From the NCBI GenBank assembly GCA_026391835.1, contig JAPLDF010000041.1:1-64000 (forward strand): a stretch of 64,000 bases of DNA, written 5' to 3'. Positions 9,902 to 52,719 of this stretch are shown here, one piece after another (position 1 is the stretch's first letter; each line of letters starts with the position of its first letter). The position numbers and the translations under genes were made by a program. The notes under the pieces were generated by a model. That model was not told the origin of the DNA. It saw nothing but the letters and a program-made list of their open reading frames with translations, and searched no databases. The DNA is from Bacteroidota bacterium. Lineage in GTDB: Bacteria; Bacteroidota; Bacteroidia; Bacteroidales; FEN-979.

Positions 9902-9903
9902 GG

Positions 9904-11934: not shown

Positions 11935-11945
11935 TCCTTTGTCAG

Positions 11946-12821: not shown

Positions 12822-12878
12822 CTGGTTTAACTAGTGAAATGATAAAATGGTGAAATGGCAAATGGCAAAATGGCTGGT

Positions 12879-21491: not shown

Positions 21492-23876
21492 TTGCCGGAA
21501 TGCAGTGCTGATGCAGAAAATAATATCAGGACGATGAAAATCTTGGGGATATTGCTGATCCTTGTGTTTTCACATGCCATTGCGTTACCGGCCGGGCCGC
21601 AGGAATGGAATGGAAAGCGGGACAGTTTCCTTGTCGCTGATTCCCTCAATAATTTCGCTGAGATTTTCATGGAAAATTATCCTGAAATATCAAAATACTA
21701 TTCCGAAAATGCATTTTTCCTTTCAAGCCAGATAAATTACATTAAAGGAGAGGTCGACGCACTGTCTTCCCTGTCAAAATACTACTTAACCAGGGACGAT
21801 TATATTAAAACGCTTGAGATGTATTTTAAAATTATCGACATCTCCGAGCATAACCATGATATTGACAACCTTGTTTACGGATACTCCCTGGTTGCCCAGT
21901 TTTTCAGGCTGATCAAGGATTACGATCTTTCAGAAAAATACCTTGTCCTGCTCGACAAAGCTGCCCATAAATCACTGAATACCAAAATACAGGCACAGGG
22001 TTTCCTCAGCTATGCCCAGTATTATCTCGCCAAAAGCGAGTACGATCTGGCCATCCGCAACCTTTATCTGTGTATTCCCTATTTTCGAAAAGGATGCAAC
22101 CCATGCAGTGAAGGAGGGGTTTATAAGTTTCTTGGTGATGCATACCTGCAGAAGAAGATGTATTCCCAGTCCGAATACAACTACAGGATGGCCGTTGACA
22201 TTTTCACTAAGATGCCCAACCCGACCGAATTGGCAATCCTCTACACCCGCATCGCTCATATCCACCAGGTGCTGAACAACAACGAACTGAACCTGAAATT
22301 CAATTTGGCCGCCCTCCGGATCCGGCAGCAGATCGGCCATTCAAAATTGATCTCATCCTCCTTTCTGAATGTCGGAGAAGCCTACTGGCTGCTTGGCCGG
22401 AAAGACTCAGCAAGCTTTTACCTGAAGAAATCGCTTCAACTTGCTGAAAGGATCAAAGATACATACCAGCTGGAGGTAATTTATTCGCAGCTCTCCATTT
22501 TTGCGAAAGCCGAAAACAGGTACGCCGATGCCCTGGAATATTATAAAATATGCATGGAGCACAAAACCAGGCTCAATCTTGACCGGAACCGGTTGGAAAT
22601 TTTAACGCTTGAAGCAAACCGCACCATCAGGGCCGGTGAAATGCAAAATGACCTCCTGAACCAGGAAATCCTTTTCCAGGACCTGCAAATCAAAAACCGA
22701 AGGATACAAATTTTCCTGTATGAGGTTGCATTTCTGATCATGCTCTCGCTGATCCTGTTTGTTGACACCCTGGCACGCAGGAACCGGAACCGTAAGAATG
22801 AGCTCAAGGAACTGAATACAAGGCTTACACAGGAAATTGATATCCGCATCGAGGCAGAGGGGAGATTGAACCGGAGCGAAGAACTGCACCGGTTCCTGGC
22901 CGAAAATACGGTTGATGTCATATCGCTGATGGATGCCAATATGCAGCGGCTCTATATCAGCCCCTCCTGCGAAAAGTTTTACGGATATACCGCCAGGGAG
23001 ATCCTTCAGATGCGCAGCCCGCTTGATTTAATTGAACCGACCTATCATGTCACTGTAAATCAGCACCTTCTTGAAATGCTCCGTTCAAAAAGTTCCACCC
23101 GTTATATTTACAAAGTACTGCGTAAAGATGGTTCAACATTCTGGGCAGAAGCAAATATCAACCCGATTATGAACCATGCAACACACGATGTGAAAAACCT
23201 GATAACCGTGGTTCGTGATATTTCTGAACGGATGAAACATGAAGAAGAACTCTCGGAAAATTCCAGGCAAAAAGAGTACCTTCTGCGTGAAATACACAAC
23301 CGGGTTAAAAATAATTTTGCCATCCTTGTAAGCCTCATGAACATGCAGCGGGACCAGTCCGCCAATCCTGAATTAAGCAGTTCGCTCACCGATCTGCAGT
23401 TAAGGGTTCGCACCATGTCGCTGGTGCATGAACAGCTTTACCAAACCCAGGAAATCAGCACCATCCCCTTCGATAACTACCTGCATCACCTTGCCCTTAT
23501 CATATCAACTTCATTTAACAACAATCGTATCCAGTTGCAAACGGAAATACATCCCTGCAATGTGGCCATCGAAATGGCACTGCCGCTTGGACTGATCATC
23601 AATGAACTCATCACAAACGCTTACAAATATGCTTTCCCGGGCGACCGGACCGGTAAAATCTGGGTAAGACTCTTACCGGAAAATGAGGATAAATTCTGTA
23701 TCTCCATCAGTGACGACGGAGTTGGATTGCCGCCCGATTTTACCATGAACACAACCCAGTCAATGGGGTCACAGATCGTCGGAATACTGGTCGAGCAAAT
23801 TGAAGCAATCCTGGAGGTTTCAAGCAATGAAGGTGCCTGCTTCCGGATTTTGTTTTCAACCGCACAAGAAAAATAA
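21492..23876 (+). CDS. TPR-PAS sensor histidine kinase (HisKA_2 type); probable start at 21534
   Basis: N-terminal TPRs, TM, PAS domain, LLREIHNRVKNNFAILVSLMNMQ phosphoacceptor region, HATPase ELITNAYKYAFPG, SDDGVGLP. Confidence 0.9.
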   Translation: MPECSADAENNIRTMKILGILLILVFSHAIALPAGPQEWNGKRDSFLVADSLNNFAEIFMENYPEISKYYSENAFFLSSQINYIKGEVDALSSLSKYYLTRDDYIKTLEMYFKIIDISEHNHDIDNLVYGYSLVAQFFRLIKDYDLSEKYLVLLDKAAHKSLNTKIQAQGFLSYAQYYLAKSEYDLAIRNLYLCIPYFRKGCNPCSEGGVYKFLGDAYLQKKMYSQSEYNYRMAVDIFTKMPNPTELAILYTRIAHIHQVLNNNELNLKFNLAALRIRQQIGHSKLISSSFLNVGEAYWLLGRKDSASFYLKKSLQLAERIKDTYQLEVIYSQLSIFAKAENRYADALEYYKICMEHKTRLNLDRNRLEILTLEANRTIRAGEMQNDLLNQEILFQDLQIKNRRIQIFLYEVAFLIMLSLILFVDTLARRNRNRKNELKELNTRLTQEIDIRIEAEGRLNRSEELHRFLAENTVDVISLMDANMQRLYISPSCEKFYGYTAREILQMRSPLDLIEPTYHVTVNQHLLEMLRSKSSTRYIYKVLRKDGSTFWAEANINPIMNHATHDVKNLITVVRDISERMKHEEELSENSRQKEYLLREIHNRVKNNFAILVSLMNMQRDQSANPELSSSLTDLQLRVRTMSLVHEQLYQTQEISTIPFDNYLHHLALIISTSFNNNRIQLQTEIHPCNVAIEMALPLGLIINELITNAYKYAFPGDRTGKIWVRLLPENEDKFCISISDDGVGLPPDFTMNTTQSMGSQIVGILVEQIEAILEVSSNEGACFRILFSTAQEK

Positions 23877-23879
23877 GAC

Positions 23880-24872
23880 ATGGAAAACCAACAATATAAA
23901 ATCGTACTGATCGGCGCCGGAACAATTGGAACAGCCCTGGGGAATATCCTTGCTGAAGCCGGCAGGGAAAGCGTGCTGCTGCATTCGATCGAACACCAGG
24001 TTGTGGATGATATCAACAGGACACATATCAATTCAAAATATTTCCCCACACTGCACCTGCATCCCGGGCTAACGGCAACCACGGATGACAGCATGCTCAG
24101 CCATAGCAACATCATCTTCCTGGCAATTCCGTCCGTTATCATGGTTGATTACCTGAAAAAAATACAAAAACACCTTCCGCCCGATGCGATATTAATCAAC
24201 CTGGCCAAAGGGTTCGGTATCGGGAACAGAACTATTCCAGAATGCCTCCGGGAGGAATTTCCTAACCCGGTATGCACCATGAAAGGCCCGAGTTTTGCAC
24301 GTGAAATCATAAACCGCCTGCCAACAGGGTTTACGCTTGGTTCACTCCACGCCGACCACTTCACAAAAATCAGGAGTGTCTTTACCAATACAAACATTCA
24401 CCTGGATTATTCCGCTGATATCCGCGGTGTTGAAATTCTCAGCATCCTGAAAAACATTTACGCCATCGCACTGGGAATTGTCGATGCCCAGTTCAATTCA
24501 CCGAATCTCCGGTTCCTGATTCTTACCAGGGCATTCCAGGAGATGCGAAAGGTTTTGCTGTCGTCGGGCGGACAAGTGGACACCCTGTTCAATTACTGCG
24601 GGTATGGCGACTTTACCCTTACCGCGCTGAACGATCTCAGCCGCAACCGGACACTCGGGCTTCTCATCGGCAAAGGCTTTTTTACCGAGCATGTTTCACA
24701 TGAACTGGTCCTTGAAGGAAAAACAGCGGTGGATGTTTTTTATGAACAGATCTCAAAAACGATGAGTGTTGAAGATAATTTTCCTATAATTGCAGAACTT
24801 TACCGTATCTTTCACACGAAATACGACATTGCGATGTTTGTGAATACGATCCTGAATTTCCCTGAAAAATAA
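23880..24872 (+). CDS. gpsA: NAD(P)-dependent glycerol-3-phosphate dehydrogenase
   Basis: GAGTIGTALGNILAEAG, LAIPSVIMVDYLKKI, GPSFAREI, LKNIYAIALGI. Confidence 0.88.
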   Translation: MENQQYKIVLIGAGTIGTALGNILAEAGRESVLLHSIEHQVVDDINRTHINSKYFPTLHLHPGLTATTDDSMLSHSNIIFLAIPSVIMVDYLKKIQKHLPPDAILINLAKGFGIGNRTIPECLREEFPNPVCTMKGPSFAREIINRLPTGFTLGSLHADHFTKIRSVFTNTNIHLDYSADIRGVEILSILKNIYAIALGIVDAQFNSPNLRFLILTRAFQEMRKVLLSSGGQVDTLFNYCGYGDFTLTALNDLSRNRTLGLLIGKGFFTEHVSHELVLEGKTAVDVFYEQISKTMSVEDNFPIIAELYRIFHTKYDIAMFVNTILNFPEK

Positions 24873-25455: not shown

Positions 25456-26202
25456 ATGTTGCTAGGAAAAAAAATAATAGTTGTCCTTCCCGCTTATAAT
25501 GCCGGGAAAACAATTGCACAAACCATTGCAGAAATCCCCTTTGATCTTGTGGATGAATATGTTGTTGTGGACGATGCCAGTACAGACAATACCATTGAGG
25601 TAGCAAGCTCCCTCAATGTTAAAAACCTGATCCGGCATGACAAGAACAAGGGCTATGGCGGTAATCAGAAAACCTGTTACAATACGGCACTCAGTTTGGG
25701 TGGTGATATCGTCATCATGTTGCACCCTGATTACCAGTATACGCCCAAGCTGATTCCTTCCATGGCGTATATGATCGCAAGCGGCCTGTACCCGGTGGTA
25801 ATTGCCTCGCGAATTCTGGGCAAAGGGGCGCTTAAAGGTGGAATGCCGATGTACAAGTACATATCAAACAGGTTCCTGACCTGGTCTCAGAATGTACTGA
25901 TAAATCAAAAACTTTCCGAATACCATTCCGGTTACCGAGCCTTTTCACGCGAAGTTCTTGAAAAAGTCAACTACCAGGCGAACTCCGACGACTTTGTATT
26001 CGATAACCAGATGCTTGCCCAGATCTTCTATTCGGGTTTCGAAATTGCCGAAATAACCTGCCCCACAAAATATTTTGAAGAGGCCTCCTCCATTAACCTC
26101 AAACGAAGCATCAAATACGGGCTTGGCGTGCTCAGAACATCATTTGGCTACTTCCTCCAAAAGAAAGGCCTGGTGTCTCTTCCGATGTATAAGTCCAAAT
26201 AG
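25456..26202 (+). CDS. family 2 glycosyltransferase, DPM1-like (polyprenyl-phosphate hexose synthase candidate)
   Basis: VVLPAYNAGKTIAQTIAEIP, VVVDDASTDNT, HDKNKGYGGNQKTCYNTAL, HPDYQY; no obvious C-terminal TM. Confidence 0.88.
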   Translation: MLLGKKIIVVLPAYNAGKTIAQTIAEIPFDLVDEYVVVDDASTDNTIEVASSLNVKNLIRHDKNKGYGGNQKTCYNTALSLGGDIVIMLHPDYQYTPKLIPSMAYMIASGLYPVVIASRILGKGALKGGMPMYKYISNRFLTWSQNVLINQKLSEYHSGYRAFSREVLEKVNYQANSDDFVFDNQMLAQIFYSGFEIAEITCPTKYFEEASSINLKRSIKYGLGVLRTSFGYFLQKKGLVSLPMYKSK

Positions 26203-26211: not shown

Positions 26212-27915
26212 ATGGCAATTAAAAAGAAGATCATCAGCAAAGAAGCTAACCTGTTGAACTGGAAGGTCCTCCTGCTGATCGCTGTTTCTTTTATTGCCTT
26301 CATCCCGTCGCTGAACAACGAATTTGTAAACTGGGACGACATTGTTTACATCATGAACAATGACATGATTACCACCTTTTCGTGGGCACACCTTCGGCAG
26401 ATCTTTTCCACTTATTTCATGGGAAATTACCATCCGTTCATTCTCCTTAGCTTTTCCCTTGATTTTCACTTTTTTAAGTTCGATGCCCCCGGGTATCACT
26501 TCCATAACCTGGTGCTGCATCTTCTTAACACTTTTCTTGTCTATGTCTTTTTTTTCCGCCTGTTAAACAAGAATGCGAATATTGCCATCACGATTGCATT
26601 GCTTTTCGCAATCCATCCGATGCACGTGGAATCAGTTTCCTGGGTTTCTGAGCGAAAAGACCTGCTCTACACAGCCTATTTCCTGCTCTCCTTAATTGCA
26701 TATTTAACTTACCTGCGCAAAGAACGGGCGTCTTATTTCATTCTTGCCCTCCTGCTCTTCGTTTTTTCCTTGTTGTCAAAAGCCCAGGCAGTTACGCTGC
26801 CCCTGGTGTTGCTGCTGGTTGATTATTTCCTGTCCCGGAAATTTGAATGGAAGATTGTGTTTGAAAAAATTCCTTTCTTTATTTTATCACTCGTATTCGG
26901 CATCGTAGCTGTTTTTGCCCAGAAAGCCAGCAGCTATATCAACCCGCAGGGAATACCCCTGTCTCAGAGCATTTTTTATGCGCCATACGGAATTTGCGTC
27001 TACCTCGTCAAGTTCCTGCTACCCTTTTATCAGACAGCTGTTTATAACTACCCTGTAACCCTGCATGGGAGCATCCCGTTTTACATCTATTTTTCACCGG
27101 TTGTCTTCTTTGTTATCGCCTTTGCGCTCCTGAAGACATGGAAACATCATAAATACATCACATTTGGAGTGCTGTTTTTTCTTGTAACGGTCTTCCCCGT
27201 GCTGCAATTTCTGCCGGTGGGATGGGCTGTTGTCGCAGAACGTTATACCTATGTCCCCTATATTGGCCTGGCAGCGATTGCGGCCATTGCGTTCTGGGAG
27301 AACAGGCCGCTTCAGGCCGGCCGGCGGAGAACCATCCTGGATGCATCTGGCTTGCTGATAATCCTCCTGTTATTCATCCTGACATGGAACCGGAACATGG
27401 TTTGGAAAGACAGTGTGTCGTTGTGGACCGATGTAATGGAAAAAAATCCGCGATGTGTTTCAGCCTATATCAACCGGGCATTTATTTTCAACGAAAACAA
27501 ACGTTATGACGATGCGCTTAAGGACTGTTCCGATGGATTGAAGATTGATTCAACCAACTTTACCTTGTACAAAAACCGGGGCATCGCATATGGCATTATC
27601 GGGAAATTTGACCTTGCACTTGCCGATTATTCAAGTGCAATAAAAAACAACCCGGCCGATTTCGACTCCTATCTCTACCGTGGCATCCTCTATACCGACA
27701 AATTCGCCAGACACGATTCTGCAATTGCTGATTTTAAAAAATATCTCAGCCACTCTCCCGGCAATCTCAATGCCACCTTCAACCTGATCGTGGCAAATTA
27801 CAACAAAGGCAGTTACGACAGCGCCCGGGTTTATTGCCTGAAAGTGTTAAGATTAAATCCCGGGAATGAACAAGCCAGGCAACTTTTAGAGAAAATTGAT
27901 AAACTAAAGCCATGA
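26212..27915 (+). CDS. TMTC/PMT-like multi-TM protein with C-terminal TPRs (putative GT-C O-glycosyltransferase)
   Basis: NNEFVNWDDIVYI, GNYHPFILLS, HPMHVESVSWVSERKDLLYTAYFLL; TPRs. Confidence 0.8.
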   Translation: MAIKKKIISKEANLLNWKVLLLIAVSFIAFIPSLNNEFVNWDDIVYIMNNDMITTFSWAHLRQIFSTYFMGNYHPFILLSFSLDFHFFKFDAPGYHFHNLVLHLLNTFLVYVFFFRLLNKNANIAITIALLFAIHPMHVESVSWVSERKDLLYTAYFLLSLIAYLTYLRKERASYFILALLLFVFSLLSKAQAVTLPLVLLLVDYFLSRKFEWKIVFEKIPFFILSLVFGIVAVFAQKASSYINPQGIPLSQSIFYAPYGICVYLVKFLLPFYQTAVYNYPVTLHGSIPFYIYFSPVVFFVIAFALLKTWKHHKYITFGVLFFLVTVFPVLQFLPVGWAVVAERYTYVPYIGLAAIAAIAFWENRPLQAGRRRTILDASGLLIILLLFILTWNRNMVWKDSVSLWTDVMEKNPRCVSAYINRAFIFNENKRYDDALKDCSDGLKIDSTNFTLYKNRGIAYGIIGKFDLALADYSSAIKNNPADFDSYLYRGILYTDKFARHDSAIADFKKYLSHSPGNLNATFNLIVANYNKGSYDSARVYCLKVLRLNPGNEQARQLLEKIDKLKP

Positions 27916-29843
27916 AATTCTTATCGGTCAGGTACCTGCCACATCTTCTGATATTCCTGTTCGCATTTGTGCTGTATGGAAACACCCTGACAAACGATTA
28001 TGCACTTGACGACCTGATCGTTATCAAAGACAACACCTTTACAAAAAAGGGCTTCTCCGGGATAAAGGAAATATTCAGCTACGACTCCTTTACAGGTTTC
28101 TTTGGCACCGAAAAAAAACTTGTTGCAGGCGGAAGGTACCGGCCATTGTCCATCGCCTCTTTTGCAGTTGAATATGCAGTGACAGGCGGACTCAACCCGT
28201 TTTTCAGTCACCTGATCAACATCCTGCTTTATGCGCTGACAGGAAGTTTTATCTTTATTATCCTCTCCAGGTTGATAAAATCACCCCCGGGCAAACCCTG
28301 GCACCTTGGTATTCCGTTCATCGCTTCCGTTCTGTTCATGGCCCACCCTGTTCACACTGAAGTAGTGGCCAACATCAAGGGCAGGGATGAGATTTTCGCC
28401 CTGCTGTTCCCCCTGATGGCCGTATGGTTTACGTTACGTTATTTTGAGACCAATAAAGTGGTTCTTCTGCTGGTTGCCAACCTTTTCTTTTTCCTGGGCC
28501 TGCTCTCCAAGGAAAATGCAATCATGTTCGTGGTCATCATACCTTTGACCATCTACTTTTTCACAAGGGTTCCGTTGAGGAAGAACATTGCGGTGAGCCT
28601 CTCGTTCCTGTTTACGGCACTGCTCTTTGTCTTTATTAGGTTCCTGGTACTCGGGTACCTCAACTCCGGTGAATTACCAAAGGAATTGTTAAACAATCCC
28701 TTTCTCTATGCGACGCAGGGTGAGAAATTCGGGACAATCCTCTACACCCTTGGCCTATACGTCAAACTGCTCTTTTTTCCCTACCCGCTCACGCATGACT
28801 ATTATCCGTATCATATTCCACTTGTATCCATGACCGACTGGAAGGCGGCGATTTCATTGGTCTTGTATATCGGGATGATCGTTTATGCAGTGTTGAAATT
28901 CAGGTCGAAAGACATCTTCTCATTTGGCATCCTCTTTTACCTGTTAACCTTATTTATTGTATCAAACCTGCTTTTCCCTGTCGGGACATTCATGAATGAG
29001 CGGTTTATCTATATGCCTTCACTTGGTTTTGCAATAATCATCGCGTACCTGGTTGCTGATAAACTGCCGCTGCTCTTAAACAAAGGAACGTCTTATAAAA
29101 ATGTTGCAACAGGGATGTTGCTCGTTGTCCTGGTTTTGTTTACCTTTCAGACATACAGCAGGAACAAAGCCTGGAAGGACGATTTCACCCTTTTTACAAC
29201 AGATGTGCTGGTCTCGGAAAACAGCATTAAATGCAATATTTCAGCAGGGGGAGATTATCAGAAAAAGGCCGGATTGGAAACCGATCCGGTAAAACAGGCA
29301 GATGATTACCAGCATTCTGTCACCTATCTTGAAAAAGCGCTCAGCATATACCCGAAAGCCGTTAACGGGCTTGTATTATATGGTAATGTATTGGCACTAT
29401 ACAAAAAAGACTACAAGCAATCGATTGTGCAATATTTGAAAGTACTGGAGGTGGATCCCTACAACAAAAATGCTTTCTCAAATGCATTGCAGGTGCTGGG
29501 TTCCCTTGAAAGCAGCCGGGAATCAGCTTATAAAGTGGGTATTTTAAAACAACTAAATTCCATAGATCCCAACAATGCCGATGTGAACTACAACCTCGGG
29601 AAAATATACGGCCAGTTCCGTGGAAACCTTGATTCTGCAAGCTATTTCCTCGAAAGGTCTATAAGCCTTAACCCGGGCAGCATCGCTGCATACAAGGACC
29701 TTGGCATCGTTTACAGCATGAAAGGTGAGTATACCAAGGCACTCAACATCTTCTCAAGAGGTCAGAAAATAGATCCCTCCGACCAGCAGATTCGTCAAAA
29801 CATCCAGATTACAAATCAGATGATGAATCAAAGGAGAAAATAA
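27912..29843 (+). CDS. TMTC/PMT-like multi-TM TPR protein
   Basis: TNDYALDDLIVI, GGRYRPLSIASFAVEY, HPVHTEVVANIKGRDEIFALLF; TPRs. Confidence 0.78.
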   Translation: MKFLSVRYLPHLLIFLFAFVLYGNTLTNDYALDDLIVIKDNTFTKKGFSGIKEIFSYDSFTGFFGTEKKLVAGGRYRPLSIASFAVEYAVTGGLNPFFSHLINILLYALTGSFIFIILSRLIKSPPGKPWHLGIPFIASVLFMAHPVHTEVVANIKGRDEIFALLFPLMAVWFTLRYFETNKVVLLLVANLFFFLGLLSKENAIMFVVIIPLTIYFFTRVPLRKNIAVSLSFLFTALLFVFIRFLVLGYLNSGELPKELLNNPFLYATQGEKFGTILYTLGLYVKLLFFPYPLTHDYYPYHIPLVSMTDWKAAISLVLYIGMIVYAVLKFRSKDIFSFGILFYLLTLFIVSNLLFPVGTFMNERFIYMPSLGFAIIIAYLVADKLPLLLNKGTSYKNVATGMLLVVLVLFTFQTYSRNKAWKDDFTLFTTDVLVSENSIKCNISAGGDYQKKAGLETDPVKQADDYQHSVTYLEKALSIYPKAVNGLVLYGNVLALYKKDYKQSIVQYLKVLEVDPYNKNAFSNALQVLGSLESSRESAYKVGILKQLNSIDPNNADVNYNLGKIYGQFRGNLDSASYFLERSISLNPGSIAAYKDLGIVYSMKGEYTKALNIFSRGQKIDPSDQQIRQNIQITNQMMNQRRK

Positions 29844-29877
29844 CCGTTATGGCAGCGGAAAAATCAACTTCCTGAAC

Positions 29878-31836
29878 TTACCTTGTTTTCGACAATTCCT
29901 TTGCCTTTTCAACATTGCCCATGTTGTAATACGAAGCGGCCAGGTTCTGCCTGATCTTCATATCGTTCGGAACGATCTTCAGCGCCTTTTCAAGATAGAA
30001 TGCCGACATGGGAAAATCACCTTTCATGGCAAAAGCCACCCCGAGATCGCTGAGGCAATCCAGTTTCGTACTGTCAATCCTGCTGGCCCTTACAAGGTTG
30101 CGGATGGATGAATCCAGGAGATTCATCTCCTTTCCGAATACAAGCCCCTTGTAGTAATACGCTTCATACTTTTCCCCGGCAGTTTTTATCAGAAGGTCGT
30201 AATATTTAATTTTCAAGGCAGGTGAGCTTATCCGGTTAACCGAGACGATGTAGTTGGCCAGGGCTTTTTCATAATTCGCATTGATCCTGAGTGTCTCAAC
30301 ATACATGTTAAGGGCCTTTTCGTATGAACCATCCTCATAATACGCATTTCCGAGTAAGAAAGTCTCAGTGGTTGTCTTGTTCATTTTTGCAGCCTGCTCG
30401 AGATAGGGAATGGCTTTTTCAGCAAAAGCCCTTTTTTCCACATTGTCTTTTGTTGCTTCCGCCCTTAACAGCAATTCATGCCCTGCTCCCTTGGTGATTA
30501 CAGCGCTGTTTACCGAAGTGAGCACATCCTGCGTATAAAGCGTAAAGCTATCCTTCCAGTCAAAGTTCCTCGAAATGGTCTTTCCTGAATACAGCAACAA
30601 TAACATGACCATAACATACGGCAGGGCCCTGGCTGATTTGCTTTGTTCAGCAATTCGAATCAATATCCAGGCAAGGGCAAGGGTAAAACCCACCGAAGGA
30701 ATGAACGCAAACCGTTCACCCATAAAAGGTCCGATAATAAAGAGGATGTTTGAAACAGGGAAAAGTGCGACAAGATAAAACAGCAGGCCGAAGCCGGCTG
30801 CATTTTTGCGGAAAGTATAATACAGGGCGGCTGCAACAAGTCCTGCATACAGCAGCAACGGCAGGATTGCCCGGATGTCCGTGAGCCCGACATATGGTAT
30901 GTAATACGGATAATAATCAATGGTGAGCGGATGGGGTACAAACAATAGTTTCAGGTAGAGCCAGAGCGTATAAAGGGTTGTTCCATATCGCTCTGAGAGT
31001 CCGGAGGCATACATGAAGGAGTTGCTCAGTATGTTATCTTCCATTGTTGGTTTTGCATTCCAGCCAAGCACACTTTGCCGGATGAACATAAACACGGCAA
31101 AACCTGTAAACAGGCTCAATGATGAGACCAAAACCGATTTTCTGAAAATCGGTTTGCTTCTGAAACAATACACGGAAAGAGGTATCAGTAAAAGAAATGG
31201 TGCGGCACTCTCTTTCGACATCAGGGAGAGAAAAAAGAACAAGCCCCCGTAAAAGGCCTGTACGGGTTTTGCTTTGTCAGTATAAATGATGATTGAATTC
31301 CACGCCAGCAGGCCAAACAGCAATGCCATCAATTCATCCCTCCCTTTGATATTCGCTGCAACCTCGGTGTGGATGGGATGCGCTGCAAAAAGAAGTGCGG
31401 CCATCAGGGACAGGCTCAAAAAGTAATCCCTGTATTTTTTAAACACCAGTTTATCCTGGAATAATGCGGCAAGCACTTTGAACAGGAGCATGCAGATCAA
31501 TCCGTATAAAATGACATTCACCAGATGGCTCACAAAAGGATTTGCACCGAAAAACTGGTATTCAATGCTGAAGGTGATCAATGAAAGCGGCCGGTACCGG
31601 CCGCCCCTGAACAGATTTTTCTGCCCGGTGAACCCGGTAAAACTGTCATTGAACAGATGTCCGAAAATCCCTGTCAACCCCGCGGTTGTGTACCTGTTTC
31701 CTGCCACAACACTGAAATCGTCATAGGCATATTTATTGGGGAGCGTATTAATGTACAGGGCGGTTCCGAACAGAAACACAAACAGATATAGATACTTCCT
31801 CTTCATAGGTCCGATGGTATCACGGGTGTTACGCAC
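29878..31836 (-). CDS. TMTC/PMT-like multi-TM TPR protein
   Basis: NKYAYDDFSVV, GGRYRPLSLITFSIEY, HPIHTEVAANIKGRDELMALLF; TPRs. Confidence 0.78.
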   Translation of the reverse strand: MRNTRDTIGPMKRKYLYLFVFLFGTALYINTLPNKYAYDDFSVVAGNRYTTAGLTGIFGHLFNDSFTGFTGQKNLFRGGRYRPLSLITFSIEYQFFGANPFVSHLVNVILYGLICMLLFKVLAALFQDKLVFKKYRDYFLSLSLMAALLFAAHPIHTEVAANIKGRDELMALLFGLLAWNSIIIYTDKAKPVQAFYGGLFFFLSLMSKESAAPFLLLIPLSVYCFRSKPIFRKSVLVSSLSLFTGFAVFMFIRQSVLGWNAKPTMEDNILSNSFMYASGLSERYGTTLYTLWLYLKLLFVPHPLTIDYYPYYIPYVGLTDIRAILPLLLYAGLVAAALYYTFRKNAAGFGLLFYLVALFPVSNILFIIGPFMGERFAFIPSVGFTLALAWILIRIAEQSKSARALPYVMVMLLLLYSGKTISRNFDWKDSFTLYTQDVLTSVNSAVITKGAGHELLLRAEATKDNVEKRAFAEKAIPYLEQAAKMNKTTTETFLLGNAYYEDGSYEKALNMYVETLRINANYEKALANYIVSVNRISSPALKIKYYDLLIKTAGEKYEAYYYKGLVFGKEMNLLDSSIRNLVRASRIDSTKLDCLSDLGVAFAMKGDFPMSAFYLEKALKIVPNDMKIRQNLAASYYNMGNVEKAKELSKTR

Positions 31837-33831
31837 TTATTTTTTATTCTTCAGCCCTTCCAGGTAGGATGGCTCCACAGGGTAATTGACCGATTTGGCC
31901 TTGAGGGCATACTGGTATGCCTTCACGAAATCATTCTGGTTGCTGTACAGTACCGAACTGTTATAACAGGCAGCCCCGTTCGAAGGATTCAGGGCAAGAC
32001 AACGGGAATAATCAGCCAATGCTTCCTGGTTCCGTTTCAGCATGTACTGGCAGGTACCCCTTTTCAGAAAATAATCGTCATTCCCCGGAATTTGGTCAAT
32101 TAAAAATGTGTAGTCCTTTATTGCATCCTCGTACCGCCCCATCTCCAGGAGCGTATACGCCTTGTTCATATACACTTCAATTGTTCCGGGTTTCAGCACC
32201 AGTGCTTTCTCATAATCCTTCACCGCAAGATCAAATTGTCTGGCCTTTGCATAAGTAATCGCACGGTTTAAATAGGTTTCAGGATTGACACTGTCAAGTG
32301 CTATAGACTTTGAATAGGAATCCAGGGCTTTGTCAATCTCATTTCTCAAACCATAGATGTTCCCGATGTTGCTGAATGCCCGTGGATCGTCGGGCTTCAG
32401 TTTGACGTAAACCTTGTAATCGTTTAGCGCCTTGTCGGTAATATTCAGGGCACCATAGTAATTCCCACGGTTTTTATACGACACTTCTGCCTGCGGATAT
32501 TTTGAAATCACATCTGTCCATAGGGTTTCAGAGTTTTCCCAGACTTTAACCTGGTCATAGGCAACTTTACAGATCATGACCGAAAACAAGACCAGAACAC
32601 CCGCCAATAACCATCGCACCTGGTGAAGGAGGTTCTCTTTACTGGTGAAACCCCGGTCAACATACCAGCCAATGATAAAAAAAACGCCTATTGAAGCAAT
32701 GTAGGAATACCGGTCGGCCATAATGGCACTGCCTACCGAGATAAACTGAAGCACCAGCAACAGGGAGAACAGGTAGAAAAGGAACCCAAAAACAAAAACA
32801 CGGGTGTACCGAACGGATAAAAACACAAGCCCCCCGAGGATGATCGCAATCAAAGGCGACAGGTAAAATATCGCCGGCAGGCCTCCCGAAGGGGTCAGCT
32901 GCGGATAAGGATAAAAAGCTGAGAAATTCCAGGGTACAAGCAATTTAAAGAGGTACATCACAAAACCATATGTTGCAAACATCAGGCGCTGAACCATGGT
33001 GAATACTTTAATGTCGGCAATAGCATCTTTTGACTGAATGAGCACGGTAATCAATCCAAAAACAATGGAAAGTGCGAAAAATGGAATTTTTTCCACCCAG
33101 AGACTGGTTGAGAACTTTCGCCCGTTAAAATAGTCAATTGCCAGCAGAATCAATGGAAAGACAACGGCTGACGGTTTGGAAAACAACGAACATATAAAAA
33201 GCATAAAGGTGACCAGCAGCAGCAACATCGATTTTCGCTCGAGATATCTAAGGTAACCGATCAACCCGGCCATAAAGAAGAAAGTATAGAGCACATCCTT
33301 CCGTTCAGCGATCCATGCAACTGACTCAACGTGCATCGGATGAATGGCAAAGAGCAGCGCAGTTATTGAAGCCACCCAGACTCTTTTGCGCGACAGCAGA
33401 AAAACAAATATAAAAACCAGCAAAACGTTAAACAAATGCAGGACTATATTTGTCATGTGAAACCTTGCCGCAACCGGTCCTTTGGCTTTTTCTGCCCCTA
33501 TATTGTCCCTGGTTGCGTAATAATAATCAATGCCAAGCGAAATCATCGTAAACGGATGATAGTTTGAGGCAGACGGGTTTGAAAAAAAGTACCCGATATT
33601 TTCATTGTTCAGGTTTTTCACACGTGGATTTTCGAGGACATACGTAGGATCATCCCAATTTGTGAACCCATGATTGATCGCCGGCCGGTAAAGGAACCAC
33701 GTAATTATCAGCAACAAACCCATTGGCAGCAAATAATGCCATGCCTGCATGGCATTATTTGCTGTTTTCTTTTTAGGGGATTGTTTTGCCGGTTGTGCCT
33801 TTTTACCTGGTCCTTTTGATATCTGCTTCAT
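31837..33831 (-). CDS. TMTC/PMT-like multi-TM TPR protein
   Basis: FTNWDDPTYVLENP, NYHPFTMISLGIDY, HPMHVESVAWIAERKDVLYTFFF; TPRs. Confidence 0.8.
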   Translation of the reverse strand: MKQISKGPGKKAQPAKQSPKKKTANNAMQAWHYLLPMGLLLIITWFLYRPAINHGFTNWDDPTYVLENPRVKNLNNENIGYFFSNPSASNYHPFTMISLGIDYYYATRDNIGAEKAKGPVAARFHMTNIVLHLFNVLLVFIFVFLLSRKRVWVASITALLFAIHPMHVESVAWIAERKDVLYTFFFMAGLIGYLRYLERKSMLLLLVTFMLFICSLFSKPSAVVFPLILLAIDYFNGRKFSTSLWVEKIPFFALSIVFGLITVLIQSKDAIADIKVFTMVQRLMFATYGFVMYLFKLLVPWNFSAFYPYPQLTPSGGLPAIFYLSPLIAIILGGLVFLSVRYTRVFVFGFLFYLFSLLLVLQFISVGSAIMADRYSYIASIGVFFIIGWYVDRGFTSKENLLHQVRWLLAGVLVLFSVMICKVAYDQVKVWENSETLWTDVISKYPQAEVSYKNRGNYYGALNITDKALNDYKVYVKLKPDDPRAFSNIGNIYGLRNEIDKALDSYSKSIALDSVNPETYLNRAITYAKARQFDLAVKDYEKALVLKPGTIEVYMNKAYTLLEMGRYEDAIKDYTFLIDQIPGNDDYFLKRGTCQYMLKRNQEALADYSRCLALNPSNGAACYNSSVLYSNQNDFVKAYQYALKAKSVNYPVEPSYLEGLKNKK

Positions 33832-33926
33832 GTGCTGGTAATTTGTGTTTCAGCTATAAAAATAATTTCCGGGAGTAGGGTCCCGCTATTTAACAATGAT
33901 AAAATGCCTGAGGCTCTCGCCTGTTA

Positions 33927-35885
33927 TCACCGGAGTGATTGAATATATTCCGGAGGGACCTTCACACCACAGTCAATCGCCTTGAGTCCGTCGGCAAGAG
34001 CTTTGGCACGATTCCCCAGGATTTTGTAGGACTGTGACCTGAAGTAATAGTAACTCCCGAAACCTGGTTTTTGAAGAATTGCTTTGTCAAACCAGTCAAT
34101 GCTCTCCTGATATTTGCCAAGCCTCTGGTAAGCCAGGGCTATACTCATAAAAACCCGTTCATCATCAGGCTTAATTAAAAGATAGTGTTTAAAATCAGCG
34201 ATCGATGCTTCCGTGTTACCCAATCCTCCATTCGCAACCGCCCGATTGGCAAAGGAGACCGCCACGGTTGAATCGAGCATGATTGATTTGGAAAGATAAT
34301 ATACCGCGGAATCGAATTGGTTTCTTCGCACATAGATCGCACCTAAATTTCCCATTGCAAGCGAATTGTCCATTTTTATTTTTAAAACGCGCAGATAGTC
34401 CGAATAGGCAGAATCATCCTTTCCCAGATCGAAATAAATGTTTCCGCGCATAAGCATGATCTCAGCATCATTCCTGTCAAGGGCAAGCGAGGTATTCAAG
34501 TCGGCGAGTGCTTTCTCATTTTGTTTTTCCGCCCGGTAATACAAGCCCCTGCAAGCATAGGGCCGCGAATCCCTTCCAGGGTATTTCTGAATGACATCGG
34601 ACCACAGCGCCCCTCCATTCTTCCATACTTCACACCTGTGATAAGTCGTTATCATTAAAAATATGCTGAAAGCTGCGTAAACCATCCATATAAACGGTAC
34701 ACCATATTTATATTTAACAGGGATATGCATCATCCCCCAGCCGGCAATAAAAACCAGGCCCAGGTATGGAACTTTTATGTACCTGTCGGCAAGGAAGCCC
34801 TGACCGGCACCAAATATCTGAAGCATAAAAATGACGGAAAAAAGAAAAAAGAGAGATCCAAATACAATGCTCCGGGTTTTCCTTGCAGTGAGGAACACTG
34901 CAAAACCAACCAGGACAATAAATACCGGGCTTAAATAATAAATTAACGGCAGCGCGTTTCCGGTGCTGACAGGGTACGGATATAAGGAACTCAGGAGAGT
35001 TGGTGCGAAAAATTTCAAAAAATAGGCACTCAGCGAATATATCCCGAAAAATAATCTTTCGGAAAAAGTAAAAATTTCATTGATTTTAAACGCTCCCACA
35101 CTTCTGAGGACAAATATACCGGCGATGCCAAATACAAGCGATAAAAAAAAGTAAGGAATTTTCTCAAAAACGATCTTTTTCAAACCTTGCCGTTTGAAAT
35201 AATAATCAACCAGGACCAGCACAAGCGGCAGGGAAACTGCCTGGATCTTTGAAAAAAGTGCAAGGACAAACAGGCCGAGGCTGGCAATATAGAAAACTGC
35301 CCTGCGTGATTTCGCCTTTACATAATATATATATAACAACAGGGAGGAAAAGTAAAACACACAATACAGCAGATCTTTCCTTTCGGTAACCCAGGCAACC
35401 GATTCAACACCCATAGGATGAACACCATATATCAAGGCTGCGGCAGCAGCATAAAGCCTATCGATCTGCAACCGGCGGAGTATCTTGAAAACCAACAATG
35501 TACATAACAGATGCAGTACAAGGTTCGTCAGGTGAAACGGCAACGGGTTAAGTCCCCATATTTTGTATTCTATCGCATATGAAAGAAGCGGCAATGGCAC
35601 ATAAGTGCCCCCTACCTGGGAAGTAAACATCCCCTTTACTGTTGCAGGGGAGATATTCCGGATCAGTGCATTGTCAATTACATAGGCGTTATCATCCCAG
35701 GTATCAATAAAATCACTTTTCAGTGTGGGTAAATAAGAAAAGAAAGTAATTGTCAGAAAAATAAAGATCAGGAAAGTTTGATTCAGGAATACAGCCTTGA
35801 ATAAACCGGGATCATGGGTGGATGATTTGTTTGCAGATCTCTGGGGGCTTTTACTTTGGTTTTTTAAATGTCCTTTAGGTTTCAT
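33927..35885 (-). CDS. TMTC/PMT-like multi-TM TPR protein
   Basis: DTWDDNAYVIDN, HPMGVESVAWVTERKDLLYCVFYF; TPRs. Confidence 0.8.
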   Translation of the reverse strand: MKPKGHLKNQSKSPQRSANKSSTHDPGLFKAVFLNQTFLIFIFLTITFFSYLPTLKSDFIDTWDDNAYVIDNALIRNISPATVKGMFTSQVGGTYVPLPLLSYAIEYKIWGLNPLPFHLTNLVLHLLCTLLVFKILRRLQIDRLYAAAAALIYGVHPMGVESVAWVTERKDLLYCVFYFSSLLLYIYYVKAKSRRAVFYIASLGLFVLALFSKIQAVSLPLVLVLVDYYFKRQGLKKIVFEKIPYFFLSLVFGIAGIFVLRSVGAFKINEIFTFSERLFFGIYSLSAYFLKFFAPTLLSSLYPYPVSTGNALPLIYYLSPVFIVLVGFAVFLTARKTRSIVFGSLFFLFSVIFMLQIFGAGQGFLADRYIKVPYLGLVFIAGWGMMHIPVKYKYGVPFIWMVYAAFSIFLMITTYHRCEVWKNGGALWSDVIQKYPGRDSRPYACRGLYYRAEKQNEKALADLNTSLALDRNDAEIMLMRGNIYFDLGKDDSAYSDYLRVLKIKMDNSLAMGNLGAIYVRRNQFDSAVYYLSKSIMLDSTVAVSFANRAVANGGLGNTEASIADFKHYLLIKPDDERVFMSIALAYQRLGKYQESIDWFDKAILQKPGFGSYYYFRSQSYKILGNRAKALADGLKAIDCGVKVPPEYIQSLR

Positions 35886-35892: not shown

Positions 35893-36564
35893 TCAATGAA
35901 TTAGCAGGCCATTTTCAACGGCCACTCTGACCAGTTGGGCCGTGTTACGTAATTGCATTTTCTTAAACAAATTTGATTTATGCCGTTCCACTGTTTGATT
36001 GCTGATGAACAATTTTTCGGATATCTCTTTTGTAGAACAGCCATCAGACAAATAACCTATTATTTCAATTTCCCTGGGCGTAATGTTCCGGAAATCAACT
36101 GTCCCTTCAACCGCATCAGATGCATAATCCCGCAGTATCACCTTGGAGCATAAACTGCAAAAATAGGTTTTTCCATCGTAAACTCTTTTAATACCTTCAT
36201 GAAGTTCCTCAACCGTGCAATTTTTCGACAAAAACCCTTTTGCTCCATGTTTCAGCATCTCCTTAATAAAAAAAGGATGGTTGTGCCTTGAAAGAGATAT
36301 AACTTTAACCCAGGGCATCTTCTCATCAATGATCCTGGTAACATCGATCCCGGTCAAGCCAGGCTTTTTTATATCAAGTAAAATAACATCCGGCTTTGTA
36401 ACCTCAAGCTTTTTCAGCAACTCATATCCGTCAGAGGCAGTCCCTGTAATTTCAAAATCACCAAAAGACCTTATAAGCGAAATAAGTGAGTGAAGAATGA
36501 TTCCCTGGTTCTCAGCGATCATGATTCTGATCTTGCCGTTTTCACTGTGAATATTTTCCATCAT
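35893..36564 (-). CDS. NarL/FixJ-type response regulator (REC + LuxR HTH)
   Basis: DVILLDIKKPGLTGIDV; ITPREIEIIGYLSDGCSTKEISEKLFISNQTVERHKSNLFKKM. Confidence 0.93.
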   Translation of the reverse strand: MMENIHSENGKIRIMIAENQGIILHSLISLIRSFGDFEITGTASDGYELLKKLEVTKPDVILLDIKKPGLTGIDVTRIIDEKMPWVKVISLSRHNHPFFIKEMLKHGAKGFLSKNCTVEELHEGIKRVYDGKTYFCSLCSKVILRDYASDAVEGTVDFRNITPREIEIIGYLSDGCSTKEISEKLFISNQTVERHKSNLFKKMQLRNTAQLVRVAVENGLLIH

Positions 36565-37120: not shown

Positions 37121-40100
37121 ATGAAAACACTTTACCTGAAGACAACAATGAAGTTGTTAAGGCTTTTACCGGTCTTAATATTCTTCATGCTGGCATTGTC
37201 ATACAATGCCAGATCACAGTATGCTTCACCTAACCCTGTGTGTTACGGACAGCCCATCAACCTGTTCTGTTCCTTAACCGGGTGTGAAGTTACTGGAGCC
37301 ACCTATACTTGGACCAACGTTTCTGGTTCCTGGACCGTTGGTCCTGGATCCGGGCCATTTGCCACCCAAAGCCCCCGCCTTTATCCACTGGGGTCTAACA
37401 TCATTGGTGACGGTCAGGCTGAAACCTTTCCTGGTTCTGGAATCTGCAACGGTGTGGGTTATGCAGAAGACAGATTTTTCCTTCAAGTGCAATTTCAACC
37501 ACCTCCGGGAAGTTTCTCGGGAGGAACTGTCAAGGTCAATCTTTTACCTGGTGTTTTTGTCACCGGAGTCCCGACCAACATTCTTTGTTTCGGATTTTCA
37601 ACCGGCTCAATTGATATTACGCCAACAGGTGGCAGACCACCTTATACCTATTTATGGAGCAACAATTCCACTGTTCAGGATCCTACAGGGTTAGCAGCTG
37701 GAACTTATTCTGTCACAGTAACTGATTTTGTCGGATGTTTCAATGACACGCAGTTCTGGACAATTACTTCACCAACACAATTGGACGTGACCGGATCAGT
37801 AACACCTGTTTTATGCAGTGGAGCCAGTACAGGCGCCATTGACATTTCAGTTTCCGGCGGAACTACCAATTATTCCTACCACTGGAATACCGGAGCCATT
37901 ACACAAGACCTCGGCGGATTAGTAGCCGGTGATTATGCTGTAACGGTTACTGACGCCAATGGTTGTCATTTATCAAAAAGTTATACAGTAGGCACTTCAA
38001 GCCCGATTGTTCTTGGCGCTGTTCCATCAAACGTGTTATGCAATGGTGGATCCAGTGGCTCAATCGACCTTTCGGTTACAGGCGGAGTTACAGCTTACGG
38101 CTACCTGTGGAATACGGGAGCAGTTTCGCAAGACATCTCCGGGTTAACTGCAGGTGTATATACAGTTGTGGTAACAGATGGAAATGGTTGTACAAAGTCA
38201 GGCAGCTGGCAGGTTATAGAACCTTCCGCTATTTCTCTTACAGGCAGCGCAACCCCTGTCCTTTGTAATGGCGGCAGCAGCGGTTCTATTGATATCACTG
38301 TAACAGGTGGTACAACAGGATACGGCTACCTCTGGAACACAGGAGCCATCTCACAAGATATCAACGGTTTAACAGCCGGTGTTTATACTGTGACCGTTTC
38401 TGATGCAAATGGTTGTCAGAAAACAGACACTTATAATGTATCGCAGCCATTGGCACCGCTTGCATTAAGTGCAACTCCAGCCAATGTTAATTGCAATGGT
38501 AATCATAATGGCAGCATCGACCTTTCCGTAACAGGTGGTACGACTCCTTATGGTTATGTCTGGAATACATCGCAAACAACTCAGGATATCACCGGATTGT
38601 ATCCAGGAGATTATTCTGTAGCTGTAACTGATGCCAATGGCTGTTCAGCCACAGGCAGCTGGTCGATTACCGAACCAACCGATATCTCCTGGTATGGCAG
38701 TGTTACCAATGTAAGTTGTTTTGGTGGCAGCAACGGTCATATTGAAGGTGGTGCCGATGGCGGTACTCCTCCTTATACCTATTTATGGAGTAATGGTGCA
38801 ACTACCCAGGACATCTCCAACCTGGTTGCTGGTACATACACAGTAACCCCGACAGATGCTGTTGGTTGTTATACCTTCACTTCAAGGACAATTGGCCAGC
38901 CAACGGAATTGATTGTTGATGAAATCGCAGTTATCACCAATGTTTCATGTTTTGGTGGCAGCAACGGTGCAATTGACATCACTGTTTCCGGCGGTACACC
39001 TGATTATGGCTACTTATGGAGCAATGGTGCAACCACTCAGGATATCAGTGGTTTAACTGTTGGTGGCTATTCTGTACAAGTTACGGATGCCAATGGCTGT
39101 CAGAAATCAGGCTTCTGGACTGTTACAGAACCCACTGTAATTTCTATCAGCGGTACACCATCACCTGTTCTGTGTAATGGAGGCAGCAGCGGTTCGATCG
39201 ACATTTCTGTGTCTGGTGGAACAACTGCATATACCTACTTATGGAACAACATGGCTGTAACACAGGACATCAGCGGATTGACCGCAGGTGTTTATACAGT
39301 TGTTGTTACTGATGGCAATAGCTGTCAGAAATCAGCAAACTTTACTGTTGGTGAACCATCAGCGCTTACACTTACAGGCTCGGCTTCGCCCGTGTTGTGT
39401 AATGGCGGCAGCACCGGTTCAATCAACATCTCTGTTTCTGGTGGAACAACAGATTATTCATATATGTGGTCCAATTTCGCAACAACTGCAAACATCAGCG
39501 GCTTGACTTACGGTGCTTACACTGTCGTTGTTACTGATGCCAATGGTTGTACGAAATATAACTCATGGATGGTAGATCAGGCTTCACCTGTTACACTTTC
39601 CGGCGTACCTTCGCCTGTTTTATGTAATGGTGGCAGCACCGGTTCAATCGACATCACTGTTGCCGGCGGAACTACTGCATACGCATATTCCTGGAGCAAC
39701 GGCGCTTCCTCAGAAGATATCAACGGCTTGAATGCAGGTGTTTACACTGTAACTGTAACGGATGGTAATGGTTGTTTAAAATCTGATATGTGGACGGTTA
39801 CAGAACCTTCCGCACTGTCACTTTCCGGCATCCCAACTCCTATTGCATGTTACGGAGCCAGCAACGGTTCCATTGACATCACTGTCACAGGCGGAACTAC
39901 TGCTTACACATATCAATGGAGCAATGGTGCTTTAACACAAGACATCAACGGATTAACCGCAGGTGTTTATGTTGTAACTGTAACGGATGGCAATGGTTGT
40001 CAAAAATCTGACAGCTGGACGATTACCGGGCCTCTGGCTCCTCTGAACGCTACAGCAGTGATTACCAATGTAAATTGCAATGGCAATCACAATGGCAACC

Positions 40101-45736: not shown

Positions 45737-46798
45737 ATGAATCAAACACTTCCAAGCCTGAGTTTTAGAATGAAAAGTAAAATTATCTTCTTCTTTTTGT
45801 TTATTCAGTGCTCCTTCATGTCTGCGCAGACCATCAATATTAATACCATTGAGGTCTGCGCAGGACAGGAAGTGTTACTTCCTGTTACCTGCTCCTCCTT
45901 GTTAAATGTTGGCGCAATCACCCTTTTTATAAGTTTTGACACCCTTAATCTTACGTTTAGTTCATTAGAAAACATTGATCCGCAACTCACAGGCATGAGT
46001 ACCAATATGATGACATTTCCTTCCCAACTTGCCTTTGCCTGGAGTAGTACAACCCCAATTAATTTTTCAACCGGAAAATTGTTTGATCTTAAATTTATCA
46101 CCAATGGGCAAACTTCGCCGGTGATTCACAATCCAGGTTGTGAAGTTGCTGATCCAATTGGTGTAATAATTCCGGTTATTTATAACGATGGTGCTGTTAA
46201 TTCCGGACTCCCGTCTGTAACAGTCCAGCCAAAAGATACTGTGATTACCGAAAATTGCAAAGCCGTTTTTTCACTGGTCTCCCAAAATGCCATTTCCTAT
46301 TTCTGGAAAGAAAGTCAGGACAACGGAACCAGTTGGCTGACCCTGGAAGATGGAGGCATATATTCAGGTACTCATTCTGAAGAACTTTCAATTTTCCCGG
46401 TTCCATTGTCATTTGACAATAACCAATATCAATGTGTGTTGATCAGAGAAAGTTGCCAGGCACTCTCTGCATCTGCCACCCTTTCTGTTGACGCGCTTAT
46501 TTCAACCAACAATTTATCAAGTCCAGGCAAAAAAGATTTTTATATTACCCCTGTCCCGTTTACAGATCATACAAATATTGAATTTACACTTCCGGAAAAT
46601 GGAAGCGCCATGATACAGGTGATGAATTGTCTGGGACAACTTGTTTATGAAATGAACCTGCCCTCTCAATCCAGGGGTGCCCGTCATATTTTGCTTAACA
46701 CTCCGGACTGGCAGCCCGGAATATACTTTGTGAAGTTAACCAGAACAACAACGGAGCAAAAAACACAACAGGTCATTAAAATAATGAAGAACAAATAA
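45737..46798 (+). CDS. secreted cohesin-like + Ig-like protein with T9SS CTD
   Basis: VCAGQEVLLPVTCSSLLNVGAITLFISFDTLNLTFSSLENIDPQL; Ig-like SYFWKESQDNGTSW; CTD ending VIKIMKNK. Confidence 0.75.
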   Translation: MNQTLPSLSFRMKSKIIFFFLFIQCSFMSAQTININTIEVCAGQEVLLPVTCSSLLNVGAITLFISFDTLNLTFSSLENIDPQLTGMSTNMMTFPSQLAFAWSSTTPINFSTGKLFDLKFITNGQTSPVIHNPGCEVADPIGVIIPVIYNDGAVNSGLPSVTVQPKDTVITENCKAVFSLVSQNAISYFWKESQDNGTSWLTLEDGGIYSGTHSEELSIFPVPLSFDNNQYQCVLIRESCQALSASATLSVDALISTNNLSSPGKKDFYITPVPFTDHTNIEFTLPENGSAMIQVMNCLGQLVYEMNLPSQSRGARHILLNTPDWQPGIYFVKLTRTTTEQKTQQVIKIMKNK

Positions 46799-46821
46799 AT
46801 CCAAAATTAACTGATCGCATT

Positions 46822-47910: not shown

Positions 47911-47975
47911 AAATAAACAATCATATATACGACCCATTGAACCTATAAAAATTAATAACAATAAAAATAAATACC

Positions 47976-50123: not shown

Positions 50124-50163
50124 ATAATCGACATATTATTGTAACTTTAAAATATTCAAACAT

Positions 50164-52257: not shown

Positions 52258-52311
52258 TCTTCCGAAAAGGTCGGGTTAGTTAAAACATTAGAAAATTAAA
52301 AACACATATAT

Positions 52312-52560
52312 ATGAAAAAGATCAAATTGGTTTTTATTCTGCTAGCAATATTCGCCTTGCCATTAATTTCTTTGCCTGATCCTCCGGGCCCTCCGGGTAG
52401 TGGCGGCACTGCCGGTGGCGGTGGTGGTCAAACTCCGGTTGGTGCTCCGATTGATGGCGGCCTGGGCATCCTGCTTGCCCTTGGATTGGGTTATGGCGGT
52501 AAAAAGCTCTACAATGCCCGTAAACTCAAGCATGAGAACATTGCTGAACCTGAGAATTAG
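52312..52560 (+). CDS. small protein with PID-CTERM-like sorting signal
   Basis: Signal peptide, Pro/Gly-rich middle, then APIDGGLGILLALGLGYGGKKLYNARK (PIDGG + hydrophobic + basic). Confidence 0.75.
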   Translation: MKKIKLVFILLAIFALPLISLPDPPGPPGSGGTAGGGGGQTPVGAPIDGGLGILLALGLGYGGKKLYNARKLKHENIAEPEN

Positions 52561-52627
52561 TCAGTCGCATCAGCAGATATTGTTTCATCTTTTTACGCCA
52601 TACGTAATTAGTTTATTTTAATTACAA

Positions 52628-52668
52628 CTTATTGACCTTATTGTAGTTCTTACAATAGGGTCAATAAG
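52628..52668. terminator. perfect 18-bp inverted repeat (terminator or RNA-processing hairpin)
   Basis: CTTATTGACCTTATTGTA-GTTCT-TACAATAGGGTCAATAAG; one G.U pair, all others Watson-Crick; no U tract follows on +. Confidence 0.7.
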
Positions 52669-52719
52669 TAAATGGACATGGATTCACTAATCAATTTAAT
52701 ATTTTAATAAACAATATTT

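Follow-up and report, generated by a model that had tools for sequence, protein, structure and literature searches.

Arrays of Probable GT-C Membrane Proteins with TPR Domains Flank a Type IX Adhesin Operon in a Bacteroidota Genome

Introduction

The closest described counterparts of the proteins reported here are the animal protein O-mannosyltransferases TMTC1-4. They modify immunoglobulin-like cadherin domains of adhesion molecules, and their TPRs have been proposed to recruit the substrate (PMC11292533). Prokaryotic TMTC-like proteins with the same architecture (e.g., AMJ42_05695) are already a known kind, reported in many uncharacterized prokaryotes (PMC7801869). Here, we analyzed a 64,000-nucleotide stretch, called the window throughout, of contig JAPLDF010000041.1 from a Bacteroidota bacterium (GCA_026391835.1). 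It has seven genes for probable GT-C membrane proteins with TPR domains, five of them adjacent (A1, B1, B2, A2, and A3) and two (C1 and A4) beyond an operon encoding a giant SprB-repeat adhesin (Table 1). The window is part of a 5.35-Mb genome in 86 contigs, whose nearest named relatives are uncultured Bacteroidales.

The bacterial proteins share with TMTC1-4 a GT-C domain followed by TPRs, 11 membrane helices, and the presence of several paralogues per genome. They also share the loop 1 DD, Y-x-P, R-x-D, motif 4 Lys, and motif 7 Arg, as PMC7801869 defines these motifs. One of three subfamilies, B, also shares the DUF1736 loop, the KE, and the motif 5 Asp. However, B has RDE for RxD and D-Y for D-W, subfamily A is without both predicted metal ligands, and subfamily C is without one. 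There are also up to 29 bacterial copies per genome, whereas animals have 4. This comparison was made by motifs and profiles. The subfamilies, the array, the GT2 partner, and the adhesin linkage are not described in the accessible part of PMC7801869. We also found no description of the active-site split, the ancient array, or the adhesin linkage in the literature that we searched, whose scope left out most subscription journals.

ArnT and the bacterial PMT proteins (PF02366 and PF13231) are in the same GT-C superfamily and share the acidic pair in the first periplasmic loop, profile similarity, and PMT_2 matches, but they have no TPR domain. The known acceptor of ArnT is lipid A. The CsbB-GtcA-YfhO and Gtr systems share with this genome a GT2 synthase, a GtrA-type flippase, and a GT-C transferase, and a YfhO gene overlaps A4. 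However, the synthase here has no membrane domain, the flippase is encoded outside the operon, and TPRs are present.

We give about an even chance to the reading that one or a few lipid-linked sugar donors serve many acceptor-specific GT-C transferases of the inner membrane, which plausibly act on exported adhesins.

Seven intact genes for probable GT-C proteins with TPR domains

The seven open reading frames encode proteins of 567 to 854 aa, and none is disrupted (0/7). In each protein, a hydrophobic N-terminal region of some 400 residues precedes a C-terminal TPR domain, which Pfam detected in all seven. An earlier reading of the window from its sequence alone (the sequence-only reading) had listed seven such genes, five of them adjacent, with C-terminal TPRs, and all of this held. 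A GT-C domain followed by TPRs was found in the seven window copies and in all 36 family members scanned.

AlphaFold2 models were obtained for A1 (pLDDT, 95.0; pTM, 0.92) and B1 (pLDDT, 89.6). Their helices, together with hydropathy, indicate 11 membrane spans, with loops 1 and 4 being long and containing short helices. The published TMTC topology also has 11 helices and the same loop arrangement (PMC7801869). The fraction of Lys plus Arg was 0.20 to 0.29 in the predicted cytoplasmic loops and 0.04 to 0.09 in the periplasmic loops of all seven proteins. Therefore, the catalytic loops and the TPRs are predicted to be on the periplasmic side.

Profile-profile comparison (hhalign) linked the subfamilies to Bacteroidota PMT/ArnT (PF02366) proteins with probabilities of 94% (A), 79% (B), and 78% (C). 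The controls, which were two single-sequence transporters, a YihY-type protein, and a flippase alignment, gave 1.5% or less. YfhO, which the literature counts among the GT-C proteins, showed no link to A or B and a weak one to C (26%). The test is therefore insensitive to some GT-C families. Pfam found PMT_2 in 7 of the 17 family copies in the genome. A Foldseek search of a viral library returned mainly TPR proteins, together with the uncharacterized phage protein V5UQY6, most of which was aligned (TM score, 0.45/0.55).

The 17 copies (eight A, four B, and five C) came from searches of the genome with A and B queries; a profile search counts 18 matches, the eighteenth of which is not itemized. 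We built a tree with 172 proteins, drawn from this genome, from relatives of it, and from 80 loci of a genome collection. In it, subfamilies A (130 proteins), B (30), and C (12) each formed one side of one branch, with support of 98, 99, and 100, respectively. The subfamily labels were assigned by best profile score and the tree was built independently of them. Identity was 31 to 43% within A, 33 to 49% within B, 24 to 43% within C, and 18 to 25% between subfamilies. The three motif subfamilies proposed from the sequence alone are thus each one clade, and their motifs were as described, except that A3 has TYVP and not NYHP.

We scored the motifs given in PMC7801869 on the 172-protein alignment. 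The first Asp of loop 1 was present in all 171 sequences that cover the site, and the second position was Asp or Glu in every sequence covered. This acidic pair had also been claimed by the sequence-only reading; it is retained in every copy, and a check for its loss from most copies came out negative. The motif 4 Lys (172/172) and the motif 2 Pro (171/171) were invariant. The motif 7 Arg was present in 129/130 A and 30/30 B proteins, and C has an Arg one column off (HR). In A1, the acidic pair is Asp-42 and Asp-43, the Lys is Lys-190, and the Arg is Arg-344. The profile link, the models, the tree, and the acidic site support the earlier assignment of A, B, and C as GT-C/PMT-type membrane enzymes with TPR domains, and they are very probably active GT-C enzymes.

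A linked synthase, an adhesin operon, and candidate acceptors

The GT2 protein encoded beside A1 has no C-terminal membrane domain. Its best NCBIfam matches, all below the cutoff, are AglJ, PpgS, and dolichyl-phosphate hexose transferase, and its best solved relative is the P. furiosus dolichol-P-mannose synthase (5mlz; E value, 6e-10). Its metal site reads HPDYQY, against DADLQH in the P. furiosus enzyme. All GT2 relatives examined, including those at Omnitrophota and deltaproteobacterial loci, keep HPDYQY. Therefore, it is a family trait and not decay. Within the genus, GT2 adjoins A or B genes in at least 10 genomes, and it is also beside A genes at Omnitrophota and deltaproteobacterial loci and at another Bacteroidota locus. 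A polyprenyl-phosphate-linked sugar is probably the donor for the A, B, and C enzymes.

This genome encodes the linked synthase in two close copies (the second, at positions 252 to 989 of contig C22, is of the same type, 58% identical, and at a contig end), and most relatives have one, whereas there are up to 29 transferases. The sequence-only reading had suggested specialized acceptors or donors. With one or two linked synthases and many transferases, specialized acceptors are likelier and specialized donors less so, a preference that we infer in a genome with other GT2 genes. The genome also encodes three GtrA-type proteins. One is a GtrA-like protein followed by another GT2, in a biosynthetic cluster 7.5 kb past the window (L017:7482-8815; C5:71482-72815). 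GT2 and GT-C genes share one operon and GtrA is elsewhere, so the three components are not together in a single operon.

The adhesin has 2,850 aa, with 28 SprB repeat stretches and 25% Ser plus Thr. Its operon is between the five-gene array and the C1-A4-YfhO cluster. Directly after this operon, ten genomes have C (minus strand), A (plus), and YfhO (plus), even though the cohesin protein has diverged to as low as 44 to 47% identity in some of them. Both clusters are on one contig in four genomes (G000, G002, G004, and G014). That the cohesin operon is confined to genomes with the array is loosely supported at most. Because the arrays flank an operon for an adhesin of the type IX secretion system (T9SS), we suggest adhesins as acceptors, with the linkage being short of proof. 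We consider the chances of a protein acceptor to be balanced, and it is a tentative proposal, somewhat less probable than that, that the neighboring adhesin is among the acceptors.

The following pathway might operate. The cytoplasmic GT2 would load one sugar onto polyprenyl phosphate, and a flippase, of the GtrA type or another, would turn the lipid-linked sugar to the periplasmic side. The A, B, and C enzymes would then use the Asp pair of the first loop, the Lys of the third outer loop, and the Arg before the tenth membrane helix for transfer, while the periplasmic TPR domain would hold the acceptor that receives the sugar. The paralogues would differ mostly in acceptor and not in donor. 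The likeliest acceptors would be exported proteins, foremost the adhesins encoded between the clusters, before their type IX exit. A more specific version, which we think doubtful, would make this locus a dedicated island and the bacterial equivalent of the TMTC-cadherin system. In it, many TPR-guided GT-C enzymes served by one polyprenyl-phosphate-sugar synthase would O-glycosylate different folded domains of T9SS adhesins, and A would be a metal-independent class.

The strict Bacteroidota O-glycosylation sequon D[ST][AILVMT] is absent from the adhesin (0, compared with 13.8 expected by shuffling) and the extended sequon occurs twice (22 expected), with these counts being non-independent because the adhesin is repetitive. 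The partial adhesins of three relatives (L118, L121, and L122) have the same depletion. With its sequons depleted, the adhesin is unlikely to be a substrate of a general D-S/T sequon system.

The main alternative is decoration of a polysaccharide or lipid at the cell surface (lipopolysaccharide, capsule, or exopolysaccharide), to which each enzyme would add one side-branch sugar as in the GtrB/GtrA/Gtr or CsbB-GtcA-YfhO systems. The YfhO gene that overlaps A4 fits this explanation, as YfhO acts in Bacillus subtilis lipoteichoic acid glycosylation (PMC5836110 and PMC7389260). So does the pairing of GtrA and a second GT2 in a biosynthetic cluster past the window. Beyond YfhO, at 60199 to 63846, the window has FdtA-like genes (60199, by Pfam; 60594, by eye), an acetyltransferase gene, and a gene for an AMP-binding enzyme. 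The FdtA-type and acetyltransferase genes (60199 to 61530) also fit, and FdtA-like genes are at the same downstream place in some relatives. With these sugar-type biosynthesis genes and the YfhO relatives that decorate teichoic acid, glycan acceptors would be suitable too. However, the two arrays bracket a protein adhesin operon and not an O-antigen cluster, and 17 distinct decorations on one polymer would be unusual. Also, Gtr and YfhO systems are not known to have TPR domains. We therefore regard decoration of a glycan as unlikely, although it is the strongest of the alternatives.

Other observations also weigh against the main reading. A PDB sequence search with the catalytic-domain profiles found no solved structure at an E value of 1. 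A Foldseek search of the PDB with the two full-length models returned nearly all TPR proteins, and in this TPR-swamped output no GT-C overlay was seen. Co-occurrence of GT2 with the family counts in favor of that reading and was significant in a phylum sample (8 genomes with both, 15 with the family only, 12 with GT2 only, and 113 with neither; P = 0.004) and in the relatives (P = 0.0002), but these P values ignore kinship, and the relatives' gene counts are phylogenetically non-independent. Outside the genus the association was weak (P = 0.08). GT2 orthologues also occur in genomes without any family member, which weakens the case for GT2 as an obligate partner. Ten of the 17 family copies are elsewhere in the genome, next to unrelated genes. 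Finally, in two genomes with few family genes (G006 and G011), the C-A-YfhO flank is missing from the adhesin operon.

If many acceptor-specific transferases do share a donor, this would be TMTC-type protein glycosylation in bacteria, with a dozen or more paralogues and candidate acceptors encoded next to them. It would offer a genetically simple system for studying TPR selectivity and why animals retain four TMTCs.

Subfamily differences at the active site

The subfamilies differ at the residues around the invariant core. The Glu after the motif 4 Lys was present in 29/30 B and 12/12 C proteins but in 0/130 A proteins. The motif 5 Asp was present, as D-Y, in 29/30 B proteins but in none of the A (0/130) or C (0/12) proteins. 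A loop 2 Glu was invariant in A and B and missing from C. A modeling study assigns metal coordination to the motif 4 and 5 residues (PMC7801869). If that assignment holds, B would have the TMTC site and C half of it, and A would use other ligands or be metal free. With this split (both ligands in B, one in C, and none in A), the family would allow a direct test of what the metal does in this branch of the GT-C enzymes.

The TMTC_DUF1736 profile (PF08409) found exactly the four B genes genome-wide, two of them above the cutoff, and no A or C gene. With a cutoff of 27 bits, B1 scored 28.9 bits and B2 was slightly below at 26.3 bits. The name "TMTC-like," which the sequence-only reading gave to all seven proteins, fits B best, and it suits A and C poorly because both are without predicted metal-binding motif residues. 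These defining residues were tested for and found missing, so by their motifs A and C should probably not be named TMTCs, whereas B comes close.

These differences raise the alternative that only some copies are enzymatic and that A proteins are binding or chaperone-like partners that hetero-oligomerize with B or C. The motif 4 Glu and motif 5 Asp are missing from all 130 A proteins, A and B genes often share one operon, and PMTs function as dimers (PMC7759382). However, A proteins keep the Asp-Asp pair, the additional loop 2 Glu, the Lys, and the Arg nearly without exception, and this invariance favors activity, perhaps of a metal-independent kind. Also, the stretch covered around most A loci contains neither a B nor a C gene. 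A purely partner role for A is therefore quite improbable.

Age and distribution of the array

The interval from GT2 to the response regulator and SprB genes is kept in relatives of the same genus. It holds three to five family genes in G002, G003, and G014, which have both interval ends on the contig. Comparable gene sets are on shorter contigs of G001, G004, G005, G013, G015, G016, G017, and G018. The upstream order of histidine kinase, glycerol-3-phosphate dehydrogenase-like, and GT2 genes is common to the relatives, and the response regulator is at the same place in G002, G003, G004, G014, G016, and G017.

The A1 clade contains five GT2-adjacent genes and two local duplicates, and A1 orthologues adjoin GT2 in G001, G002, G003, G005, and G015. 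B1 is in an orthologue clade of eight (itself and seven others). The B2 clade also has eight members (support, 100), in which B2 is joined by four genes from the same place and by three from related arrays. A2 is in a clade of four (support, 98), found in the arrays of G002, G003, and G017, A3 in a clade of three (support, 99), in the arrays of G002 and G014, and A4 in a clade of five (support, 100). The window copies share 67 to 85% identity with their nearest orthologues and about 42% at most with one another. Members are closer to the orthologues of other species than to their array neighbors, so the array consists of old paralogues that were lost differentially and, in some cases, duplicated locally later on, with no burst. 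The earlier description of a local expansion was therefore misleading, as members have their own orthologue clades in other species, mostly with conserved position.

Copy number in the genus ranges from 0 to 27 (median, 12), and a genome of a neighboring genus has 29. That genome (G019, of the same family; L020 and L133) has a run of at least 10 mixed A, B, and C genes on one contig. Neutral build-up of paralogues, in which recent tandem duplications have no specific biology behind them, would suit this range and the genuine local duplications elsewhere (e.g., near relatives in threes at L127 and at L134), but it is very improbable, because the separate orthologue clades rule out a recent tandem origin for the window array, gene order and neighbors are retained, and all window copies are undisrupted.

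In the phylum sample the family was in 23 of 148 genomes, usually in one to three copies. In 2022, the general O-glycosylation system of Bacteroidota was reported to depend on a transferase that was still unknown (PMC8729774). The patchy distribution rules out this family as the missing general O-oligosaccharyltransferase, and protein glycosylation by it would point to a second, separate pathway. Among cultured relatives, strains of Arcicella, Flectobacillus, and Emticicia each have an A gene. Beyond Bacteroidota, A proteins were found in loci labeled Omnitrophota, Deltaproteobacteria, Eisenbacteria, Elusimicrobia, Fibrobacteres, Sumerlaeota, and Spirochaetes. A deltaproteobacterial genome (L097) has four A genes in tandem that are distant from the Bacteroidota ones. 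A locus labeled Bifidobacterium breve (L068) has a Bacteroidota-type A gene; this genome bin is probably mislabeled or mixed.

Gene content of the window

The five adjacent genes belong to two convergent units, GT2-A1-B1 on the plus strand and response regulator-A3-A2-B2 on the minus strand, which are 34 bp apart. Intergenic gaps are 9 and -4 bp in the first unit and 7, 95, and 0 bp in the second. Promoter and terminator scans gave no signals above chance.

Table 1. Positions of the array, the adhesin operon, and flanking genes in the window
Feature	Coordinates	Strand	Evidence or remark
Histidine kinase and glycerol-3-phosphate dehydrogenase-like gene	21492..24872	+	Pfam; conserved flank upstream of GT2
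GT2, DPM1-like polyprenyl-phosphate-sugar synthase (248 aa)	25456..26202	+	Pfam Glycos_transf_2; NCBIfam; 5mlz; candidate donor maker
GT-C/TPR gene A1	26212..27915	+	9 bp past GT2; 4-bp overlap with B1; AlphaFold2 model
GT-C/TPR gene B1	27912..29843	+	Nearest to TMTC: DUF1736 loop, KE and D-Y ligands
GT-C/TPR gene B2	29878..31836	-	Final gene of minus-strand unit
GT-C/TPR gene A2	31837..33831	-	Orthologue clade
GT-C/TPR gene A3	33927..35885	-	Second motif is TYVP variant
LuxR/NarL-type response regulator	35893..36564	-	Response_reg and GerE (Pfam); opens minus-strand unit
Giant SprB-repeat adhesin with T9SS sorting tail	37121..45673	+	SprB repeats and Por_Secre_tail; candidate acceptor
Remaining adhesin operon	45737..53154	+	Pfam; gene order retained in ten genomes
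T9SS-tail proteins	start 45737 and 46822	+	Pfam
Cohesin-domain protein	start 47976	+	Pfam
T9SS-tail-like protein	start 50164	+	Within adhesin operon
Small exported protein	start 52720	+	Within adhesin operon
GT-C/TPR gene C1	53173..54948	-	PMT_2, 33.2 bits, above cutoff
GT-C/TPR gene A4, long TPR domain	55027..57591	+	16-bp overlap with YfhO gene
YfhO-family GT-C membrane protein	57576..60098	+	PF09586, 223 bits

Far upstream of the array, at 5535 to 13895, are genes for VWA, TPR, BatD-like, and MoxR-like proteins. Read from their translations, they resemble the Bat operon of Bacteroidota.

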